From the NCBI GenBank assembly GCA_013178225.1, contig JABLXE010000011.1, positions 28,429 to 92,428 of the forward strand: 64,000 nt of DNA. Reading direction: 5' to 3'. Both the position numbers and the translations under genes were made by a program. Below are positions 15,770-57,479 of the stretch, piece after piece (the first letter of the stretch is position 1; each line of letters starts with the position of its first letter). Origin of the DNA: Methanotrichaceae archaeon (lineage in GTDB: Archaea; Halobacteriota; Methanosarcinia; Methanotrichales; Methanotrichaceae). Below the pieces are notes generated by a model. The model was not told the DNA's origin. It saw only the letters and a list, made by a program, of their open reading frames with translations, and did not search any database.

Positions 15770-15922
15770 CTACTTTGGGCTTCTGTGATGTGCCCAATGA
15801 CTTAGAGCTTTCTCTTTATTATTCCAGGCATCTTCATATTGAGGATTGTTCTCTATGGCCTTATCATATGCTTGGATGACCTCATCATACATTTTTGCAT
15901 ATTCACCTTTTAGATTGATCAC
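15770..15922 (-). CDS. Short TPR-containing ORF or gene remnant
   Basis: Starting at a GTG at 15922 with GAAGGATGAAG upstream, this frame encodes 50 residues containing one clear tetratricopeptide repeat: YDEVIQAYDKAIENNPQY then EDAWNNKEKAL. It is in the same reading frame as the upstream gene (15947-16783) and begins nine codons after that gene's TAG. It is either a tiny separate gene, the tail of a longer gene cut off by a stop mutation, or a TPR remnant. The WNNK and ENNP wording resembles the TPR protein at 50301-51218. Confidence 0.5.
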   Translation of the reverse strand: MINLKGEYAKMYDEVIQAYDKAIENNPQYEDAWNNKEKALSHWAHHRSPK

Positions 15923-15946
15923 AGTCTCTTCATCCTTTCGCCCCCA

Positions 15947-16783
15947 CTATTGTGGAACCGGCCCAACCAACTCTGGCGGATATGAGAAAAGAAGAACGCC
16001 ATCAAAATCTGGATTTATCCAATAATCTCCTACGTATCCTGCATAATCAGCCCAAGCATTGCATTGGGCTACTCCCCATTTGACAATGCAATCGCTATTA
16101 CATTTTTGATGACAGGGTCCAAATATGCTGCTTTCTCCTGTATCAGCGCACTTATCATAACACGCGTCGTGATCACGGCAGCCTTGATGAGTCAAGCAAC
16201 TTACTACATTATTATAAACACAATTATATTGTTGTCCTGACGTGTCGGTGATTGGAATTACAATATGCTTCATGGGGTCACAGCGATCTGAGGGGCAGTC
16301 CTCACCACATGCTCCTCTGCACTGTGCACATGATGCAATGCCCGGGTCCCTTAAGTTAGGTGCGCCAGCTGTACCGATTGGGCAAATGGGAAGAGTAGCT
16401 TGATCTTCAGAACCATTTATTCGCTCAGCGCTCCACTCGAAAAGTCTACCTGGGATATTTTGTTGCGTGAATGTTCCAGTCACGGCTTCTCCAGATAGTT
16501 CTCCTGTGTATAATTGGCTATACTTTGATCCATAATTCGAGTTGCGATAGAACTTAAGGTTTTTTCCGTTGAAACTGATATCTGTGATTTTTTCCGTGCC
16601 TGCTTCGAATTGGATAGTGCTATCCTTATCATTCAATTCCATTGTTCCGTGATACCCATTTGCCACTATATTCCATGAACCGTAGATGCTCTGAGGATTT
16701 GATTCTGATTCCGCACAGCTTGATGGATTTTGCAGGCTACATATTAGCAGCATCAAAAATACAGCTTTTTTCCTTAGTGCCAT
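15947..16783 (-). CDS. Secreted protein: lipocalin-like domain plus phospholipase A2-like domain
   Basis: About 278 residues from ATG 16783, which has GAGGGA 8 nt upstream. The open frame's TTG at 16789 is too close to the SD. A signal peptide with possible lipobox (LQNPSSC) precedes a beta-rich domain (about 33-125, YGSWNIVANGYHGTMELND). A Cys-rich domain then carries the secretory PLA2 active-site pattern CxxHDxC (CRDHDACYDKC; His207-Asp208 in the longer numbering) and about a dozen cysteines for disulfides. PLA2 enzymes cleave sn-2 acyl esters, which archaeal ether lipids lack, so the substrate would be foreign lipid or the domain may only bind. The family call rests on the motif and the cysteine density. 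Confidence 0.65.
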   Translation of the reverse strand: MALRKKAVFLMLLICSLQNPSSCAESESNPQSIYGSWNIVANGYHGTMELNDKDSTIQFEAGTEKITDISFNGKNLKFYRNSNYGSKYSQLYTGELSGEAVTGTFTQQNIPGRLFEWSAERINGSEDQATLPICPIGTAGAPNLRDPGIASCAQCRGACGEDCPSDRCDPMKHIVIPITDTSGQQYNCVYNNVVSCLTHQGCRDHDACYDKCADTGESSIFGPCHQKCNSDCIVKWGVAQCNAWADYAGYVGDYWINPDFDGVLLFSYPPELVGPVPQ

Positions 16784-17146
16784 TTTCAATCCCTCGCAAA
16801 ACTATTGCCGCTAATATTAATTAATTTGCCTATATTGCTGAGCTACTGTTTGGTTTAACTCGAATACGATGTGCTAGAATCCCATCCCCCGCACATTAGG
16901 TTACGGCCGAATCTTCTCGAGGTTCCCATTCAACATCCTCCAGATGAAACGCACCATCAGTCCATCCCGATGGGTCTCCAGATAGCGCCTAGGCCCTCGA
17001 TGACCCGGCTGTTAATATCGGGAAACCACCCCGCTTGTATCCGCTTCTGTGCTTGTTAGGCCAAACCCGATAGCAGGGATATCGTTGTCTTTAATTCAGA
17101 CATACAATCGTATTCTATATCGTATTAGTTTCAATTTTTGATGGAT
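16784..17146. other. Intergenic region, no supported gene
   Basis: The 5' part is the upstream region of the lipocalin/PLA2-like gene. On the minus strand an open frame of about 60 codons ends at a stop near 16911 but has no plausible start, and its translation resembles no family I know. It may be a decayed gene. Confidence 0.35.
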
Positions 17147-45651: not shown

Positions 45652-46749
45652 CTAAACATATCTGCCTTCAGGGAAGATTCCCTCTCTATAGGCTTCATCG
45701 CAATACCAGAACGGCGCCCATAGATCTTTATTTCGGTAATAGTTTTGAGCTATGCAGCTTCCTCGGCATATATTCTTCATGAGGCATTTGCCGCAAATTC
45801 CCTTTAGCCTATTGGGAAGGCCGTTGCGAATCTGCCGCAACACCTCAGAATTTCTCCATATATCTTCGAGGTTATCATAAGCAGCATGGCCGAAGGTCAG
45901 CTCTGGAATATTCCTCCCAATTCCGCAGAGAGCGTAAGAACCGTCTGCCAGGACGCCAAGAATTTCTTGAATCTTGCAGACTCCGCATCCTGATCCCTCA
46001 TCCCCAAACATGCAACTCAGCGGCATAAATGCAAGAGGAAGGTCATATAAAATTTTAATGCTCGTAGACTTTGCCAGTATTTCTTCGATCCATTTTCCGA
46101 TATCCATTAGCTCTTGGACCGATAATCCCTCGCCCTCTTTGTGCATTGAATCGCCTCTGGCCATGGGTTGCAGGATATTGAGCTTTATCGAGTCTGCCCC
46201 CATGGATTCACCAAGTCTAACCATTTTTTCAATCTGATCTCGATTTTTCTTCATCAAGGTCATTATAATCTGAGGCTTCAGATCTGCTTCAACTAGGTAG
46301 CTCAGCCCCTTTAAGGTGTCTTCAAAACATCCGGGGACCCCTCTAATCCATTCGTGGGTCTTTGCGTCGGCTCCATCGATGCTTACAGATATCATGGGCA
46401 TCTCACATCTGGCAATAGAACTAACAAGCTCAGGAGTGCAAAGCACTCCATTTGTCTCTATCTCAAGCTTTAGCTTCTTGGATCGGATTAGCTCAAGGAT
46501 CTCAAATATTTGTGGATGAAGAAACGGTTCTCCTCCGGTAAGCTTGATATTCGTTAGTCCTAAGGGAATTGCCTGATCTATTATCGACCTGAACAGGTTC
46601 AGAGGAAGGCTTGGATATACTTTATCCGCGTGCTGATAACTGGGGTCAATCCAGCAGTGCCGACAGGCCAGGTTACAACCTTCTGTGAGATAAAAATAAA
46701 TCCTTCGCAGAGGATAAATCTTTTCTCCTCTTCCTGCAGTGCTTTCCAT
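45652..46749 (-). CDS. Radical SAM/SPASM RiPP-modifying enzyme (SynChlorMet-type)
   Basis: A 365-residue enzyme that uses a [4Fe-4S]-SAM cluster. CxxxCxxC is CNLACRHC at about residue 25, followed by the GGEPFLHPQ motif. The SPASM region holds auxiliary-cluster cysteines in GCGVCKIQE, YALCG, GICGKCLMKNICRGSCIAQ and WYCDEAY. It is last in a minus-strand cassette, 14 nt after the second radical SAM gene. It should modify the precursor peptide encoded at 49729-49929, for example by a thioether or other cross-link. It corresponds to ScmE or ScmF of SynChlorMet cassettes, and which is not determined. Confidence 0.8.
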   Translation of the reverse strand: MESTAGRGEKIYPLRRIYFYLTEGCNLACRHCWIDPSYQHADKVYPSLPLNLFRSIIDQAIPLGLTNIKLTGGEPFLHPQIFEILELIRSKKLKLEIETNGVLCTPELVSSIARCEMPMISVSIDGADAKTHEWIRGVPGCFEDTLKGLSYLVEADLKPQIIMTLMKKNRDQIEKMVRLGESMGADSIKLNILQPMARGDSMHKEGEGLSVQELMDIGKWIEEILAKSTSIKILYDLPLAFMPLSCMFGDEGSGCGVCKIQEILGVLADGSYALCGIGRNIPELTFGHAAYDNLEDIWRNSEVLRQIRNGLPNRLKGICGKCLMKNICRGSCIAQNYYRNKDLWAPFWYCDEAYREGIFPEGRYV

Positions 46750-46763
46750 TGATTAATCCTCTC

Positions 46764-47870
46764 TCATGATGGAATCTCCGGCAGCCTTCCTCCCTCCTCT
46801 AGGAATCTTCTCAGGCAGGAATCGGGGCTTGGATGATTTACTTGACCAATCAGATTGTAGGCCATGGCTGGACAGCTGCCCGTACAATATTCGATGTACG
46901 CGCATCCCTTACAAAACTCGTAGTCTTGAAGTGAGATATTGGTTCGGTCTCGCAAGCTTCTCAACGCAGGATGATGACGCCAAATCGTTCTTAAATCATC
47001 TCTGTTAATTCTTCCTAGCTCAATATGACTCAGTATGGTGCAGGGCACAATAATACCGTCAGACCTTACTGCCAACTCTCTTCTCACGCAGCCACAGCCT
47101 GTGAGATGCCCTCCATAATTCTTAGATGGCAGGTTCATACATCTGCTTTCCTCCATCTCACTCCAGATCTTGGCTTCTGCAAGCGGGCCGGCCATGGCCA
47201 TTATTCTATCTTTGTATTTTTTATCTAATATCAAGAGCGTTTCCATAGCTCGGGTTTGTTCTTTGGCCGTGAGCTGAATCTCTTCAGGGTTGGTTCTGCA
47301 GAGTCCCATGTAGGATGCCGAGTTGGTAGAAAAAGAAGGCAATTGCAGGTCATCCAGCAGGAGTTTGGCTATATTCTCGAGATCTTCTAGGTTCTTTTTG
47401 TGAATGGTCACTCTCACTGTCACCGGCAGTCCATAGCTTTTCAGAAACTCAATGCCTCTCATCGCCTTTTTAAATGTTCCTCTCCCTCGAAATGAATCAT
47501 TTATCTCTTCCGATGATCCGTCAATGGATACTTGGATTGATTCGCATCTCTTGGTAGAAGCTAGGAACTCTGCTATTTCTTCGCTGATCAGCGTTCCATT
47601 GGTCAGGATTCGATATCTCATCCTGTTCCTGACCGCCCCTTCGATTAGCTCTCGCAGGTCCTCTCTGCAAAAAGGCTCGCCCCCTGAGAAACAGACCCTG
47701 ATAACCGCACAGCGGTTGAGTTCCTCGAAGAATTTGAGCCATTCTTCTGCAGGAAGATCTATGCCTACGTCGCCAGGACTGTCGAAATGGCTGCAATATC
47801 TGCACCGTAGGTTACATTTGCCTGTAATCTCGAGTTCCATAGATCTCGGAGTGCTCATGACCGCGGGCAT
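46764..47870 (-). CDS. Radical SAM/SPASM RiPP-modifying enzyme, second copy
   Basis: 368 residues. The radical SAM motif is KCNLRCRYC at about 18-26, with FSGGEPFC. SPASM cysteines are in TGCGCVRRE, IVPCT, CKGCAYIEYCTGSCPAM and SPDSCLRRF. It starts 3 nt after the PqqD-like gene. It differs in sequence from the enzyme at 45652-46749, so the two probably perform two distinct modifications or form a heteromer. SynChlorMet cassettes have exactly two PqqE-like enzymes. Confidence 0.8.
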   Translation of the reverse strand: MPAVMSTPRSMELEITGKCNLRCRYCSHFDSPGDVGIDLPAEEWLKFFEELNRCAVIRVCFSGGEPFCREDLRELIEGAVRNRMRYRILTNGTLISEEIAEFLASTKRCESIQVSIDGSSEEINDSFRGRGTFKKAMRGIEFLKSYGLPVTVRVTIHKKNLEDLENIAKLLLDDLQLPSFSTNSASYMGLCRTNPEEIQLTAKEQTRAMETLLILDKKYKDRIMAMAGPLAEAKIWSEMEESRCMNLPSKNYGGHLTGCGCVRRELAVRSDGIIVPCTILSHIELGRINRDDLRTIWRHHPALRSLRDRTNISLQDYEFCKGCAYIEYCTGSCPAMAYNLIGQVNHPSPDSCLRRFLEEGGRLPEIPS

Positions 47871-47873
47871 CGA

Positions 47874-48155
47874 TCAGACCTCGTAACCCGCAAACCCTTT
47901 TTCAACAAGGTCCCTGACAAAGTCGACAAAATCGCTTTCTATGTTCTCCGGCACCTCTGAAAAGCTACTTTTCAGCTCCTGCAAGATATCTTCCTTCTTT
48001 GTTTTGCCATCGAGATTCTTCCATATCCTGACCGCTACAGGGTTAATCCCAAAAGCTTTTCCGCTGTCCGGATCAAATAAGATCGCCCAGCCGTCAAATT
48101 CCTCCCTGCAAACTACTTGAGGATTAATCGTCGGAAGCGAACATTCATGCATCAT
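47874..48155 (-). CDS. scmD: PqqD-like peptide chaperone (ScmD-like)
   Basis: A 93-residue RRE-type protein that holds the precursor leader for the radical SAM enzymes. The PqqD pattern is clear: DGWAILFDPDSGKAFGINPV and AVRIWKNLDGKTKKEDILQE. It is immediately upstream of the radical SAM genes. In PQQ and mycofactocin systems the equivalent protein is essential for modification. Confidence 0.85.
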   Translation of the reverse strand: MMHECSLPTINPQVVCREEFDGWAILFDPDSGKAFGINPVAVRIWKNLDGKTKKEDILQELKSSFSEVPENIESDFVDFVRDLVEKGFAGYEV

Positions 48156-48173
48156 TTGTTTTCCTCTAAATAT

Positions 48174-48809
48174 TTATTTCATCCTGGGTGATTGGAGACT
48201 ATTCATGCGATCGACGATTTCCGACAGATCGCTCTCTTTCAAGAAGAGCCGCATCGGTGGCTTAATGCGCCACGGTTCACCAGTTTTTTTCTTGCCAACT
48301 ATGTGTCCGCTCAGCATGAGCAGCAATTCCACTCCTTCCGGACGCTGCAGTGCAATGGCCTTAACAGGAAGCGAAATGAAGCCCAGTTTTTCAGATGTCA
48401 CCAAGCCCTGGTAAATAGGCCTTAATATCCCATGGACCCTCCAAAGCAGCTTGCGCTTGAAAATGGTTGGAGCTGATTGAATCTGGCCGCCCCAGCCACC
48501 CCGAACTATCCACTTTCTCTTGCCCCGGAGCGCATACATGACTTTGCCTGCAATTTGCTCGGATCTGAGCGTCCAAGAGTCGTCGGCGTAATTGTTGTCC
48601 CCTCTGGTAATAATACCTCTTTCGTTCACGGATACGACTCTATGAATTACTTTTTTCTCTAGTCCGGTGTCTATGACCACAACATCTCCCGCCCTAATCT
48701 CTCCTTTTTCAAAGGAGCAAAAATACAGTTTATCCAGATCTCTTAGGATCGGGTTCATGCTTGATCCGATGTATAAAATGGTCTTTATCCGTTCAGACTC
48801 TTGCCGCAA
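48174..48809 (-). CDS. S26-type (signal peptidase-like) protease
   Basis: A 211-residue protein whose N-terminal half is a signal peptidase core. The catalytic Ser is in YIGSSMNPIL (about 14-23). GDVVVID follows, and VIHRVVSV has His in place of the bacterial Lys, as in the SipW/archaeal type. Then comes ITRGDNNYADD. The C-terminal half (about 110-211) is an extension without a recognised domain. In this cassette it is a good candidate for cleaving the leader from the modified peptide. It overlaps the upstream gene by 17 nt. Confidence 0.8.
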   Translation of the reverse strand: MRQESERIKTILYIGSSMNPILRDLDKLYFCSFEKGEIRAGDVVVIDTGLEKKVIHRVVSVNERGIITRGDNNYADDSWTLRSEQIAGKVMYALRGKRKWIVRGGWGGQIQSAPTIFKRKLLWRVHGILRPIYQGLVTSEKLGFISLPVKAIALQRPEGVELLLMLSGHIVGKKKTGEPWRIKPPMRLFLKESDLSEIVDRMNSLQSPRMK

Positions 48810-49713
48810 TGCACGGCACCTCTACAGAGCGTGGCAAAGCTTCCTCTATATGCGACCAGAAGTCACCGGTGAGGCTGACATGCAGGCGGAAGGCGGGAAC
48901 GGATTTGGCTATTTGGCAGGCGTTGTCGAAGAGATGCCTGCGCAGCAAATTTTTATTTATGTCACTTAAATATTTAGAGCTTCTTAAAAGAATTTGGTAG
49001 GAGGATTGATAAATAAAGTTTGCTGCTTCGCTTTTTCTAATCGGTGATACGTAGTTCTCTTCCGACCGTTGCAACACGAAGAATCCTGCCATGGGAAAAT
49101 GCTGTTGCACGTCCCAGCTAGGTGCTGATCGTTGCCATAGATATTCGCTCCAGGTGGGAAATGGGTGAGCTTGGTATTCACCTCTGACATCTTTGGTTAC
49201 TAGTACTTCATCGTCACACAGCGCCTGCCAGGGTTCAGGAATTCTCTTGCAGCATGTACTCTTTCCGGTCCCTCCTGGCGCTGCAATCGCCAGACATCTA
49301 CCTTGATGCACAATCAACGCTGCGTGCAAGGGAAGCCCTCCTTTGTCAATGGAACCGCAGTAGATGGGATAAGTAGCTTGGATCAAGCATAGATAATCCA
49401 AAATCTCGTCTATCTCTTCAGCCAATTCGCACTCTATGAAGGGATCGCCCATTTTAGAGCGAATGCGTATAGCACCCAGCGTCTGCCAGTCAAGAAAGCT
49501 CGTGCTGTAATCCTCTCGGTTCTCGTTCGATCTCTGGCTGTCGTTCCTGTAAAAGAAGATCGTCTTAGCAGACTCCAGTTCTTCTGGACAAAGCTTCATT
49601 ATCCGGGCTGCAGATCGGAGCCAAGCTTCTGCACTGCTATCTGCCGTCAGCTTCCAGGACTGGCCATCAGCTAGACTGATAGCGTAGCTTTCGCAGGCTC
49701 TATCTTTTATCAT
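48793..49713 (-). CDS. HPr-kinase-like protein of the RiPP cassette (ScmC-like)
   Basis: 306 residues. The C-terminal half is a P-loop domain of HPr kinase type, with LPLHAALIVHQGRCLAIAAP followed by the GGTGKSTC Walker A loop and CDDEVLV as the acidic Walker B-like motif. Related kinases in lasso-peptide clusters phosphorylate or tailor the product, so it might modify the peptide with ATP. It would be the 'conserved hypothetical' component ScmC if I recall the TIGRFAM description correctly. The N-terminal half has no match. It starts 16 nt after the precursor gene stop. Confidence 0.75.
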   Translation of the reverse strand: MIKDRACESYAISLADGQSWKLTADSSAEAWLRSAARIMKLCPEELESAKTIFFYRNDSQRSNENREDYSTSFLDWQTLGAIRIRSKMGDPFIECELAEEIDEILDYLCLIQATYPIYCGSIDKGGLPLHAALIVHQGRCLAIAAPGGTGKSTCCKRIPEPWQALCDDEVLVTKDVRGEYQAHPFPTWSEYLWQRSAPSWDVQQHFPMAGFFVLQRSEENYVSPIRKSEAANFIYQSSYQILLRSSKYLSDINKNLLRRHLFDNACQIAKSVPAFRLHVSLTGDFWSHIEEALPRSVEVPCIAARV

Positions 49714-49728
49714 AAGACTGATTCGAAA

Positions 49729-49929
49729 TCAATTGGGGCGTCTTCCGTCGTTGCAGCCGCAATTGATACAAGCGTAACCGGCTCCCGACCAGCATTTCAG
49801 AGTATCGCTGCCGCCTGGTATACAGCCGCTTTGCTGGGAGCCCACCTGCCCTACTCCGAAAGGCTCTTCCCAGTCTTCTGGGGTCAAACTCACAAGCTTC
49901 GGCCGTTCATACTTCAAAATTTTATTCAT
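49729..49929 (-). CDS. Putative RiPP precursor peptide of the cassette
   Basis: 66 residues from ATG 49929, with GAGGAGGG upstream. The TTG at 49932 is not needed. The leader-like N-terminus KYERPKLVSLTPEDWEEPFG has the (Y/W)xxPxLxxL look of leaders bound by PqqD-like proteins. A flexible GVGQVGSQQSG link follows. The Cys/Gly-rich core has cysteines at about 36, 46, 54, 57 and 59 (CIPGG, KCWSG, YACINCGC) and ends NDGRRPN. It is first in the operon, 16 nt before the kinase-like gene. Cysteines next to Gly, Ala and Asn are typical substrates for thioether-forming radical SAM/SPASM enzymes. The modification and activity are unknown. Confidence 0.75.
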   Translation of the reverse strand: MNKILKYERPKLVSLTPEDWEEPFGVGQVGSQQSGCIPGGSDTLKCWSGAGYACINCGCNDGRRPN

Positions 49930-50300
49930 CAACGCCCTCCTCTTTTTTCGCTCCTAACAGTCTCTTTCTATCTTTAGCTGGCAAACTCTTGGATCTTCTA
50001 ACGATCCTAAACTTATACATCGCTTGATATACCAGCGATTATTAAAACTTTGCGTTTTTCGATCATTTTTGTTTAGATTAGACACTGTAAGGGTAGCAAA
50101 TGTAAAACATATCAAGCCAAACTATCAAAATTTCTGAAAATCCAAAAAGAAATCGTTGCCGATTTTTCAGTAGGCTGCATCCATAGATGTCCTAGACAAT
50201 CAAAACAAATTCTAGTTAATTCGGTTGCGTTTCACTCAATCTAGGTTTCGCAACAACATTTTAATTTTGGTATTAGATATTATATCTGCTTACCTGTTTT
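49930..50300. other. Intergenic region upstream of the RiPP operon
   Basis: About 370 nt, strongly AT-rich, with no supported gene. The SD of the precursor (GAGGAGGG) lies at about 49933-49942. TATA-like AT tracts around 50040-50055 and 50255-50290 could hold the RiPP operon promoter. Confidence 0.4.
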
Positions 50301-51218
50301 TTAGCCGCTATCAAATAATCTTCTCAGATTACTTTTGCTGCACAGAATCAAGAGCAGGATGGTCAGCCAGGTGCCATTTGCAGGAATGGCCTTATTATTC
50401 TCATCTATGAGATCTCTATTCGTTTCCAGTATGTAATCTTGGAAGGTTCCATTGTAGCCCCTATAAATCGCCTCTCGCTCAGCATCTTTCGACTTGGATT
50501 CTTGTCCGAGTGCCTCCAGGACCAGGGCCCCGTTCACCCAGGCCGCTGTCGAGTTTGAATTCAAGATGGCAGCGTGCCTGAAACAGGTCAGGGCTTCTTC
50601 TAATTTCCCCGTTCTGGCCAGAGCTACTCCCTTATTGCTCCACGCGGTGGCGTATTCCGCCTCTACTGAAATTGAGCCCTCCAGGCACTTTATTGCTTCT
50701 TGGTATTGCCCGAATTTCTCTAGTATTACGCCTTTATTATTAAGTGCGGCAGTGCCGTGTGGATTTAGATCCAGCGACCGGTTGAAGCAATTTAGTGCTT
50801 CTTTGTCTTCGCCAATTCTGACAAGCAGGTCTCCCATGTTGCTCCACGGGACGTAATTATCTGCATCCAATTTAATAGCCTCATAGTAACAATCACGGGC
50901 TTCTTCGTACCTTCCCATCGTGGTCAGGATTACACCCTTATTATTCCAAGCCTCTATATTTGCAGAGTCGACAGCAAGAGCTAAGTTATAGTTCTTTAGA
51001 GCATACGGATAATTGTGGTTCTTTATATCCTGATTTCCCCATTCCGTCCAGGTGGTTGAATCTATGCCCTCAAACGCGGTTTCGTTTGCAGACTCGTTCA
51101 TCTGGTCTATCAAAACATGCGAAATGGGCACCTCCTCCTGCTGTGAAAAGAGGTCCTGTCCCTGTCCGGACTCGATCGCCGTCAGCGTAAGGGCCAGCAT
51201 GAGAAGCGGAAGTCTCAT
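50301..51218 (-). CDS. Exported tetratricopeptide repeat protein
   Basis: 305 residues with a signal peptide (RLPLLMLALTLTAIESGQG) and five to six TPR units at about 55-245. The repeats carry NYPYALKNYNLALAVD, AWNNKGVILTTMGRYEEARD and the like. A C-terminal hydrophobic segment (GTWLTILLLILC) is followed by a basic end, perhaps a membrane anchor. TPRs mediate protein-protein contacts outside the membrane. The gene is between the RiPP operon and the divergent ABC exporter, but no direct link is shown. Confidence 0.75.
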   Translation of the reverse strand: MRLPLLMLALTLTAIESGQGQDLFSQQEEVPISHVLIDQMNESANETAFEGIDSTTWTEWGNQDIKNHNYPYALKNYNLALAVDSANIEAWNNKGVILTTMGRYEEARDCYYEAIKLDADNYVPWSNMGDLLVRIGEDKEALNCFNRSLDLNPHGTAALNNKGVILEKFGQYQEAIKCLEGSISVEAEYATAWSNKGVALARTGKLEEALTCFRHAAILNSNSTAAWVNGALVLEALGQESKSKDAEREAIYRGYNGTFQDYILETNRDLIDENNKAIPANGTWLTILLLILCSKSNLRRLFDSG

Positions 51219-51371
51219 AGCCTGTGATTGGCAGCCGAATGATATATTTTGCGCCTGCCAATATTGTTTAAATAATATTAATCTGTTTCAACAAGCGCTT
51301 CAGTAGCTTACAATCGTCATATTATCTCTAGGAAAGATATAAGTCGGTGGGCATATCTTCGCGAATACTGG

Positions 51372-53189
51372 ATGAGCCATCACAGCAGTTCCAAGAATCC
51401 TAAAGACCGACGGTCTCAGCTCGTCCTGGGCGCCTGGCAGATCCGCCGGGCAATTTTGCTGGCCTGGAACAGCTCCCGAGGATGGACCGCTGCCAATGTG
51501 ATTCTGCTGGTGCTGCAGGGACTTCTTCCTCTCATCTCGCTGTATCTCATAAAGCAGATCATCGACTCCATAGTTCCCGGCGGCGATTTCTCACGCACGC
51601 TGTTCTACATAGTCCTGGCCTGCGCGGCCGCACTGCTGGCAGCCTTTTGCCGCGCGGCAGCAGGTGTGGCCAGCGAAGCCCAGGCGGCTCTGGTCTCAGA
51701 TCACATCCAGGATCTGCTGCACGAGCAGTCGGTGCAGATGGACCTCGAATACTACGAGAACGCGAGCTACTACGACTCCTTACACCGGGCGCAGCGTGAG
51801 GCCCCCTTTCGGCCGGCCAGGATCGTGAACGGCCTGGCTCAGCTGGGCCAGGGAAGCGTATCCCTTTTGGCGGTCGTGGCCCTGCTCATATCCTTCAACT
51901 GGGTTTTGGCCGCGGTGCTGATGCTGGCCGCGGTTCCCGGCATATTCGTCCGGCTCAAATACGCCGACCGGCTCTACAAGTGGCAGCAAAGCGCGACATC
52001 AGGTGAGCGAAAGGCGCTTTACCTGCACTGGCTCCTCACTTCCGACAGCCACGCCAAAGAGATCCGCGTCTTCTCCTTGGGAAAGCTGCTCATGGACAGG
52101 TATCGCGAACTCAGAAACCGTCTTCGAGATGAGCGCTTGAATATCGCGCAACAAAGATCGCTGGCCGATTTCCTGGCCCAGGTTACCGCTGCTGTGGCCC
52201 TCTTCGCCTCGCTGGCCGCAATTGCCCACCAGGCCTATCTGGAGGCCATAACTCTGGGCGCTCTGGTCATGTATTTCGGGGCTTTCCAGCAGGGGCAGTC
52301 GTATATGCAGTCCTCCCTCGCGGCCCTGGCAGCCCTTTATGAGGACAACCTGTTCCTGACCGACCTGTACGATTTCCTGGACCTGCAGCCCAAGGTCAAA
52401 GAACCTGTCCATCCCAGACAATTTCCCCATCCGATAAGCGGAGCGGTAGTCCTGGAAAACCTGAGCTTCAGCTATCCAGGAATCGACAGAGAGGTGCTGT
52501 CGGGCCTGAGCATGACCATTAAGCCGGGCCAGACCGTGGCTCTGGTGGGCGAGAACGGATGCGGAAAGACCACGCTCATCAAGCTGCTGTGCAGGCTTTA
52601 TGACCCCACCTCAGGCAGGATAACCGTGGACGGCATCGACCTGCGGGATTTCAGAATCCGAGACCTGCGGGGAGAGATCGGCGTCATCTTCCAGGACTTT
52701 GCGCGCTATAATCTGACGGCCAGAGAAAATATCTGGTTCGGAAGCCCGGGCGAGCCCGCTCAGCATAGCTCCATCGTACTTTCTGCCCAGACCTCGGGAG
52801 CAGATGAGTTCATCCGCGACTTGCAGCATGGATACGATACGCTTCTTGGCAGGTGGTTTGAGGAGGGAGCTGAGCTGTCTGTCGGCCAGTGGCAGAAGCT
52901 GGCCCTGGCCCGCGCATTCTTTCGCAACTCGCAGCTGATTGTTCTCGATGAGCCCACCAGTGCTCTTGATCCCCGAGCCGAGGACGATGTGGTGCAGAGC
53001 CTGCAGAAGCTGGCTGAGGGAAGAACTGCCGTCCTGATCAGCCACCGCCTCTCCACGGTCAAGATGGCCGATTGCATCTTCTTTCTAAAGGACGGACGTC
53101 TGGCGGAGAGCGGAAGTCACGAGGAGCTGATGGCCCGCGGGCAGGAGTACGCCAGACTATTTGAAATTCAGGCCAGGCATTATCGTTGA
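51372..53189 (+). CDS. ABC exporter, fused permease and ATPase
   Basis: 605 residues. The six-span permease covers about 40-330. The ATPase domain has Walker A GENGCGKTT (about 396), Q-loop GVIFQDF, signature LSVGQWQKLALARA, Walker B LIVLDEPTSALD and H-loop ISHRLST. There is no N-terminal peptidase C39 domain, so a leader would have to be removed by another protease such as the nearby S26 enzyme. Exporters of this half-transporter type carry lipids, drugs or RiPP products. Its position next to the RiPP cassette makes product export a reasonable inference. Divergent from the TPR gene by about 150 nt. Confidence 0.85.
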   Translation: MSHHSSSKNPKDRRSQLVLGAWQIRRAILLAWNSSRGWTAANVILLVLQGLLPLISLYLIKQIIDSIVPGGDFSRTLFYIVLACAAALLAAFCRAAAGVASEAQAALVSDHIQDLLHEQSVQMDLEYYENASYYDSLHRAQREAPFRPARIVNGLAQLGQGSVSLLAVVALLISFNWVLAAVLMLAAVPGIFVRLKYADRLYKWQQSATSGERKALYLHWLLTSDSHAKEIRVFSLGKLLMDRYRELRNRLRDERLNIAQQRSLADFLAQVTAAVALFASLAAIAHQAYLEAITLGALVMYFGAFQQGQSYMQSSLAALAALYEDNLFLTDLYDFLDLQPKVKEPVHPRQFPHPISGAVVLENLSFSYPGIDREVLSGLSMTIKPGQTVALVGENGCGKTTLIKLLCRLYDPTSGRITVDGIDLRDFRIRDLRGEIGVIFQDFARYNLTARENIWFGSPGEPAQHSSIVLSAQTSGADEFIRDLQHGYDTLLGRWFEEGAELSVGQWQKLALARAFFRNSQLIVLDEPTSALDPRAEDDVVQSLQKLAEGRTAVLISHRLSTVKMADCIFFLKDGRLAESGSHEELMARGQEYARLFEIQARHYR

Positions 53190-56201: not shown

Positions 56202-57479
56202 GCAGCGTGCCATAATTGCTGTAACTTAGTAGTAATATAACAAGATATAATATAATGAGCCCTGTATCCCTAATTGGTGTCGAATCAAGGAGGGACACAG
56301 AGCTATGGATACATCCGGATTAATAGAAGATTATCTTATCGATCGCAACGAGGGAATGAAGCAAGTGCTCACCTGGTTTTTGAATCAGGTGATGCAGCAA
56401 GAGGCATTAAACCAGATCCAAGCCTTGCCTTATGAGCGCACAGGCCAGAGGAAAGCGCGACGCAACGGTCCAGGAAAAGATCTCTTAAGACCATTCATGG
56501 CGAAGTAGTCCTTGATAAGCCCCAATTTAGAGAATTTCCTTTCAAGACCCAGGTATTCGAGCGATATTCCCGGGTAGAAAACTCCCTCCGAATAGCAGTC
56601 GCTGAAGCATATCTTGAGGGAATAGCTACAAGAAGAGTCAAGGAAGTCGTATCCAAATTTGGATTGGAAAATATTTCTGCATCCGAGGTTTCCCGAATCG
56701 CCAAAGAGCTGGATGAAAAGGTCAAAGAGTTCCTTAATAGACCAATTGAATCTGAGATAAGTTACCTATTTGTTGATGCCAGTTACTTCAAGATCAGATC
56801 AGAAGGCCGATATAAAAACAAAGCACTGCTTATAGTCACGGGCATTCATGAAAACGGTTATCGCGAGGTCTTAGGTGCCAAAGTCGAAGATAATGAAGAC
56901 GAGCCTGCATGGGAAAGGCTATTCGATGAGCTGAAAGCCAGGGGACTCAAAGGCGTCAAGTTGGTTATATCCGATGGGCATAAAGGAATTCAGAAGGCGG
57001 TCGAGAAATCATTTCTGGGTGCTTCATGGCAGATGTGTAACGTTCACTTCATGAGGGCAGTGCTTAAGAATATTCCCAAGAAGGATAAGGCCAAAGTGGC
57101 TTATGAATTGAAAGAAGCCCTTGAAGACGAGGGCAAAATGCAGATATTGGCGAATAAGCTTGCAGATATGCGCTATTCAAAAGCCGCTGAAACCATCGAG
57201 AGGTTCAGATTCGATCTGTGGAACTACAAAGCATTTCCAAGAAGGCATTGGATAAGGATCAGGACCACTAACGGAATAGAACGGATTAATAAAGAGCTTA
57301 AACGCAGAAGTCGAGTAGCCGGAGCTTTTTCCAATGACGAATCGCTCCTGAGAATGGCGGTCTGCATCAGATGGATATAAACGAGGAGTGGATTACAGGT
57401 AAAAGGTATTTATCCTTAGAGGATGAAGGAAATCTGGATACAGGGCTTAACTAAATTACAGCAATCTGTGCACGCTGCC
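56202..57479 (+). mobile_element. IS256-family insertion sequence (1278 bp)
   Basis: The left end begins GGCAGCGTGCCATAATTGCT, and the right end, read on the minus strand, begins GGCAGCGTGCACAGATTGCT. These imperfect inverted repeats share the outermost ten bases and the ATTGCTGTAA block. The element carries one transposase frame with two frameshifts. Exact flanking duplications show it moved intact and recently, even though the present transposase is broken. Confidence 0.88.
56305..57454 (+). pseudogene. IS256-family (Mutator-type) transposase, two frameshifts
   Basis: The first frame (56305-56508) gives the N-terminal part (MDTSGLIEDYLIDRNEGMKQ) and shifts out at the GGAAAAGA run near 56477, ending at a false stop. 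The +1/-1 frame then continues KRSLKTIHGEVVLDKPQFRE and carries the DDE core: FVDASYFKIR (first Asp), LVISDGHKGIQ (second Asp) and RTTNGIERINKELKRRSRV (Glu). A second shift near 57370 replaces the normal end DINEEWITGKRYLSLEDE, which is readable in another frame to the stop at 57452-57454. It is not expected to be functional. Confidence 0.85.

Follow-up and report, generated by a model that had tools for sequence, protein, structure and literature searches.

The window analysed here, a 64,000-nucleotide stretch of a Methanotrichaceae archaeon genome (assembly GCA_013178225.1, contig JABLXE010000011.1, positions 28,429 to 92,428), carries between positions 45652 and 53189 a gene cassette of the SynChlorMet (SCM) type. 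The cassette encodes ScmC, ScmD, ScmE and ScmF, and begins with a gene for a 66-residue peptide that is probably the substrate of a pathway for a ribosomally synthesised and post-translationally modified peptide (RiPP). The genes named in a first-pass annotation of this DNA were all recovered where it had placed them:

49929-49729, minus strand: precursor peptide (divergent ScmA), 66 residues from the ATG; first gene, with GAGGAGGG ahead of the ATG
49713-48793, minus strand: ScmC (TIGR04249), HPr-kinase/PEPCK-superfamily protein, likely a peptide Ser kinase
48809-48174, minus strand: S26 peptidase of the Sec11/SipW type, assigned by homology, likely the leader peptidase; longest open reading frame (ORF), exact start codon uncertain
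48155-47874, minus strand: ScmD (TIGR04248), PqqD-type RiPP recognition element (RRE), predicted leader binder
47870-46764, minus strand: ScmE (TIGR04250), radical SAM/SPASM enzyme
46749-45652, minus strand: ScmF (TIGR04251), radical SAM/SPASM enzyme
50301-51218, minus strand: TPR-repeat protein, encoded between the operon and the exporter gene and with an uncertain tie to the pathway
51372-53189, plus strand: MsbA-like ABC exporter, divergent, likely exporting the mature peptide

The six genes from 49929 to 45652 likely form one operon, since the gaps between them in transcription order are 15, -17, 18, 3 and 14 bases. Their proposed membership of the SynChlorMet system was borne out by scanning eight window proteins against NCBIfam release 20.0, the model library used for family cut-offs. 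ScmF (TIGR04251, 582 bits against a cut-off of 400), ScmE (TIGR04250, 589 against 400), ScmD (TIGR04248, 108.8 against 100) and ScmC (TIGR04249, 254 against 125) all exceeded their cut-offs, and neither the PqqD-like protein nor the two radical SAM proteins were assigned to any other family in this library. Both radical SAM proteins carry the CxxxCxxC motif and the SPASM CxxCxxxxxCxxxC motif, present in ScmE as CNLRCRYC at residue 19 and CKGCAYIEYCTGSC at 320, and in ScmF as CNLACRHC at residue 25 and CGKCLMKNICRGSC at 319.

Acquisition of the cassette by transfer would fit its low G+C content (0.473, compared with 0.531 for the window outside 45652-53189) and the narrow occurrence of ScmF: in a set made up of the window genome and 59 relatives, 60 in all, four have ScmF over its cut-off.

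Precursor peptides beside ScmC

The proposal that the first gene encodes the precursor is well supported: a common leader and CxxG core are found in ORFs beside ScmC elsewhere, and a profile of 51 other precursors, from which the window peptide was excluded, recovers this peptide among 11,032 ORFs (E 9e-6, 25.3 bits). Its leader, K-Y-E-R-P-K-L-V-S-L, spans residues 6-15 and is followed by Cys at 36, 46, 54, 57 and 59, with CxxG at 36, 46 and 59 and ten residues separating Cys36 from Cys46; ahead of its ATG is a strong ribosome-binding sequence. No other place in the window genome matched the precursor profile at E<=0.001. Precursor searches against a set of 5.8 billion proteins returned 1 and 2 proteins, including one identical match, low counts that say little in a search that needs shared five-residue words. 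A DNA pattern for Cys-x-x-Gly codons occurs within the window at a count below chance expectation and is uninformative.

It had also been claimed that the SCM precursor was not identified, which needs correcting, as NCBIfam release 20.0 already holds a model for it (TIGR04252, SCM_precur_ScmA). This model gave no match to the window peptide at E<=10. It matches 10 of 52 precursor candidates scanned at E<=0.01, and among ten proteins scanned singly those from L041, L084 and L110 were above its 35-bit cut-off; across 41 genomes nothing exceeded the cut-off and one weak match was obtained, in G011. No Pfam family matched the 52 candidates at E<=0.01. The range of TIGR04252 appears narrow, and the window peptide is most likely an SCM precursor lying outside the named model.

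A scan of species genomes with the ScmC alignment yielded 66 loci outside the window species. The cluster goes beyond chance association, because ScmC recurs in these 66 loci mostly next to part or the whole of the remaining cassette, where the contig is long enough. By their record titles, the hosts include Deltaproteobacteria, Desulfobacterales, Omnitrophota, Chlorobiaceae, KSB1, Aminicenantes, Saganbacteria, Victivallaceae and methanogens. In both bacteria and archaea, small ORFs directly upstream of ScmC have in common the leader K-[YW]-E-K-P-x-L-[IV]-D-L and, in the core, C-x-x-G-x-x-A units that recur about every ten residues. The leader consensus gives the commonest residues over 77 candidates chosen by the leader rule and the presence of at least two C-x(2,3)-G, a selection that fixes [YW] and Pro and enriches CxxG; kinship among the candidates was not down-weighted.

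The precursor rule asks for [YW]xxPxxxx[LFIM] in the first part of the peptide, followed by at least two Cys and three Gly. It was written on other loci and applied to a holdout of 38 (L062-L099). Of the 154 holdout ORFs that share the strand of ScmC and lie no more than 1 kb upstream of it, 25 agreed with the rule. The opposite strand gave 3 of 158, the remainder of the loci 17 of 2700, and shuffles 0.43 per pass; by eye, several of the matches in the remainder resemble true precursors placed differently. A rule ORF lies within 1 kb upstream in 20 of the 38 holdout loci and anywhere in the locus in 28, the corresponding figures for the loci used to write the rule being 25/39 and 33/39. These counts omit L112, a duplicate of the window, L116, a duplicate of L106, and L105, L108 and L109, which are without ScmC. 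An earlier run of the rule gave 22 of 44 holdout ScmC genes, after which the distance and overlap limits were changed and loci were counted instead.

Among 56 leader ORFs with at least two Cys, taken without selection for CxxG, 249 of the 343 core Cys are followed by Gly at +3 (in shuffles, mean 0.198 and maximum 0.266) and 113 of 338 by Ala at +6 (mean 0.108 and maximum 0.172), and the commonest Cys spacings of 10, 11, 9 and 12 together account for 192 of 293. The number of CxxG per core ranges from 0 to 9 (median 4). At the border of leader and core a Gly is nearly fixed, with a small residue two places earlier in 44/48 against a background of 31%, resembling a signal-peptidase site. The precursor profile A2, built from 52 of the 77 candidates, among which the window peptide represents its duplicate L112 as well, matches 3 of 41 genomes, which are the three SCM carriers of that sample; since A2 includes the peptides of G000 and G009, the independent part of this result is the match in G002 and the 38 absences.

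L061 (4518-12273) contains four ScmC-type genes, the last of them short, and six different precursor-like ORFs. At 15909-16709 of L073 there is a second neighbourhood with PqqD-like and radical SAM genes and two small W-x-x-P-x-L ORFs without CxxG repeats, which looks like another peptide system.

Kinase, recognition element, peptidase and exporter

Of the 66 loci, 31 are 14 kb or longer; all are anchored on ScmC, and they contain a precursor-like ORF in 29 cases (counted over the whole locus on either strand, with some chance matches), S26 in 24, ScmD in 23, ScmF in 22, ScmE in 21, an ABC exporter in 20 and NTP_transf_5 in 18. Gene order differs, being A-C-S26-D-E-F in the window and commonly D-E-F-(A)-C-S26 in other loci. 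In L106, which comes from a relative in the same family, the genes ScmD-ScmE-ScmF-A-ScmC-S26-ABC-NT follow one another in one run on one strand, while in G002 A-ScmC-S26-ABC and D-E-F are on separate contigs. L070 has A, S26 and NTP_transf_5 with ScmC, and no ScmE or ScmF in the stretch covered. L058 and L059 were set aside as loci without radical SAM genes, as both have assembly gaps just upstream, where L058 keeps a radical SAM fragment. A further locus of G002 (L105, contig C43, 1177-3574) has ScmE-ScmF and a short ScmD-like ORF, with no recognised ScmC in its 10 kb contig, and may be an additional copy in decay.

The His-Lys-Asp-Asp residues that PMC9266682 reports to be catalytic in lasso peptide kinases are conserved in ScmC, the matching of residues being our own. 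The 50 matches listed in an ScmC comparison include PEPCKs and no HPrK, which excludes nothing, and the relation of ScmC to HPrK is one of homology, drawn from the fold superfamily and the conserved residues. The profile of ScmD (A3) matched in the PDB a PqqD family protein (9x8z, 1.1e-8) and the lasso RREs TbiB1 (1.4e-7) and TfuB1 (6e-5).

The S26 protein scored 49.4 bits with its best NCBIfam model, TIGR02228, just under the cut-off of 51.85, and gave no Pfam match at E<=0.01; of the 22 sequences in its alignment, 18 match Peptidase_S26, and its profile (A4) matched SEC11C in the PDB (9.6e-14). The likely catalytic residues S17, H56, D71 and D77 are invariant across 47 S26 sequences, and the window protein is without a clear membrane anchor. 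Homologues (E<=1e-8) are present in four of the 60 genomes, and these are precisely the ones in which ScmF exceeds its cut-off. ScmC and Peptidase_S26 are joined in a single protein in L091 (by Pfam) and L117 (by eye), as are S26 and NTP_transf_5 in L040 and L045.

The best NCBIfam model for the exporter was MsbA (TIGR02203, 296 bits, cut-off 602) among the best 25 of 198 matches, and within that same limit for the exporter no SCM-named model matched either the S26 or the ABC protein. Close homologues of the exporter (E<=1e-60) are present in at least 6 of the 60 genomes, comprising all four SCM genomes and two others; about 21 exporter candidates were scored per genome, and these counts are lower bounds. 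The exporter gene adjoins S26 in L046, L058, L106 and L145. The suggestion in the first-pass annotation that peptidase and exporter extend the pathway to maturation and export gains support from their co-occurrence with SCM and from the ScmC-S26 fusions.

In the relative G002, a protein 37% identical to the window TPR protein (50301-51218) is encoded next to A-ScmC-S26-ABC. On contig C25 of the window genome (L157) there are two NTP_transf_5 (PF14907) genes, at 1032-2309 and 15839-17086, the second with two TPR genes beside it. A transposase-like ORF, recognised by eye, lies on the exporter side of the cassette at 56664-57380 of the window, on the plus strand.

Proposed pathway and comparison with known systems

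The preferred reading is that 49929-45652 is an SCM cassette whose first gene encodes the substrate, processed by ScmD, ScmE and ScmF, ScmC, the S26 peptidase and the ABC protein, to which we assign a probability of about 0.72. By analogy with the LPP and lasso systems described below, ScmD would hold the peptide through its Y-x-x-P-x-L leader, ScmC may phosphorylate a Ser of the peptide, and the S26 peptidase may free it of the leader in an RRE-dependent manner, at a small-x-Gly site some 15-18 residues after the leader aromatic. Judged by their enzyme family, ScmE and ScmF would crosslink the cysteines, perhaps forming one intramolecular thioether per C-x-x-G unit with a change of -2 Da each. 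The nearby ABC protein would export the mature peptide. Rich in Cys and Gly and closed into several rings, the secreted product would more probably serve in dealings with neighbouring microbes than as a cofactor. The wider proposal that SCM cassettes of bacteria and archaea form their own RiPP class stands at even odds; such a class would combine C-x-x-G-x-x-A units closed by thioethers, PEPCK/HPrK-type phosphorylation, presentation by ScmD, cytosolic Sec11-type release at A-x-G without a signal peptide, and MsbA-like export.

Several observations weigh against this pathway. The window peptide is irregular, with CxxG at only three of its five Cys, Ala missing from position +6 of both Cys36 and Cys46, and a Pro two residues before the conserved Gly, G25-V26-G27 being an alternative site. 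The co-conserved small ORF that the first-pass annotation expected at homologous loci was found at most of them, but 10 of the 38 holdout loci, two of these cut by contig ends, and 6 of the 39 seen loci have no ORF agreeing with the rule. Sequence matches of ScmC to HPrK are weak and its PEPCK-like fold is no proof of kinase activity, while the predicted fold of the S26 protein has SEC11A as its best match, weak at E 2.8e-3. Covariation of the leader Tyr/Trp with ScmD columns was not significant (best 0.553, 95% threshold 0.559) in a test that skipped eight loci without a single clear leader type. The exporter gene is divergent and outside the operon, beyond the TPR gene, and is present too in two relatives that lack SCM. 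The window cassette has no NTP_transf_5 gene, PF14907 being found in the window genome only on contig C25.

Other products were weighed for the same genes. Cys/Gly-rich repeats beside an exporter recall the bufferins, described as copper-chelating RiPPs (PMC12452194), and the product may be a secreted metal-binding Cys peptide, bufferin-like or a metallophore, whose CxxG units are metal ligands tuned by the enzymes. This is unlikely, as radical SAM crosslinks would consume the Cys thiols, and none of the eight scanned proteins was recognised as the product of a metal-resistance gene. The absence of ScmE and ScmF from the stretch covered in L070, which L058 and L059 resemble apart from their assembly gaps, and the split between contigs in G002 would agree with kinase, peptidase and exporter forming an LPP-like pathway of their own, which uses the same leader and makes a linear phosphopeptide, the radical SAM enzymes acting on another substrate. 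We regard this as quite improbable, given that the full set is contiguous in L106, that ScmE is present in 21 of the 31 long loci, and that Cys-x-x-Gly repeats track SCM loci, which is hard to explain without Cys chemistry.

A peptide-derived redox cofactor like pyrroloquinoline quinone or mycofactocin, for which the peptide would be feedstock and the radical SAM enzymes would start synthesis, would be expected to have a constant precursor. The varying CxxG number, the possibility of several precursors per locus and the inclusion of an exporter and a leader peptidase in the module make such a role very doubtful, even though ScmD resembles PqqD, and ScmE and ScmF give sub-cut-off matches to models of PqqE and of mycofactocin maturase. 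Least credible of all is a true precursor encoded at some other place, with the 66-residue ORF as a mere chance frame, as might be suspected from the TIGR04252 miss and the single, identical protein database match. Its position, ribosome-binding site, leader and CxxG spacing, and the want of another genome match at E<=0.001, all oppose this, and a chance ORF was rejected on the holdout rule counts and the leave-one-out profile.

The reading as an SCM cassette with its own substrate adds to a system known here just by the names of hidden Markov models: no paper on 'SynChlorMet', TIGR04248, TIGR04249, TIGR04250 or TIGR04251 was found among 5.39 million open-licence papers, a set that leaves most subscription journals outside. 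Relative to the SynChlorMet models (TIGR04248-TIGR04252), the window has ScmC, ScmD, ScmE and ScmF over cut-off, and differs in its gene order, in a precursor outside TIGR04252 and in an S26 peptidase and ABC exporter without an SCM-named model.

Sactipeptides and ranthipeptides resemble it in the action of radical SAM/SPASM enzymes on cores rich in Cys, as SCM cores probably are handled too, but ScmE and ScmF fall in their own SCM families, and among the maturase models listed StsB reaches 94-108 of the 625 bits required and PapB 68-96 of 340. Paeninodin-type lasso clusters share a [YW]xxPxL leader, an RRE, an HprK-type kinase with His-Lys-Asp-Asp and, in some, a nucleotidyltransferase, according to PMC9266682 and PMC13381572. 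Unlike them, the window has radical SAM enzymes, and none of the eight proteins to which the scan was limited was assigned to a macrolactam cyclase or B2 peptidase. The text of the RRE-Finder paper is without the terms HPr, YxxP and Scm, and a search of the open-licence literature for HPr kinase, radical SAM and precursor peptide together found one paper, whose HPr kinase passage concerns lasso clusters.

The closest tested parallel appears to be the pathway for linear polyphosphorylated peptides (LPP), whose module, as described in the main text of PMC13381572, consists of an RRE, an HprK kinase, a Sec11/SipW-type leader peptidase and an MsbA-like exporter. In the experiments reported there, LppK phosphorylates Ser3, and LppS (S29, H68, D93) cuts the leader only with its RRE. 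The window cassette resembles it, by homology on the window side, in its discrete RRE, HprK-like kinase, Sec11/SipW-type peptidase, MsbA-like exporter and YxxP leader, and the distance from Ser to His is 39 in both LppS (S29, H68) and the window S26 protein (S17, H56). It differs in that radical SAM is mentioned 0 times in that main text, in the NTP transferase, absent from the window cassette and present in 18 of the 31 long SCM loci, and in the leader: the LPP consensus is YxxPxVLxHQxIxFETxxS, with highly variable C termini, and the window peptide, compared by eye, matches the YxxPx start only. In the titles and abstract openings listed from the open-licence literature, as delimited above, SCM is not stated to be an LPP-like module with radical SAM enzymes. 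The precursor rule extends well past the curated ScmA model, the parts list gains a peptidase, an exporter and a nucleotidyltransferase, and SCM is tied to an experimentally tested pathway; for these reasons the product can be sought directly, in what looks like an LPP module plus two radical SAM enzymes.

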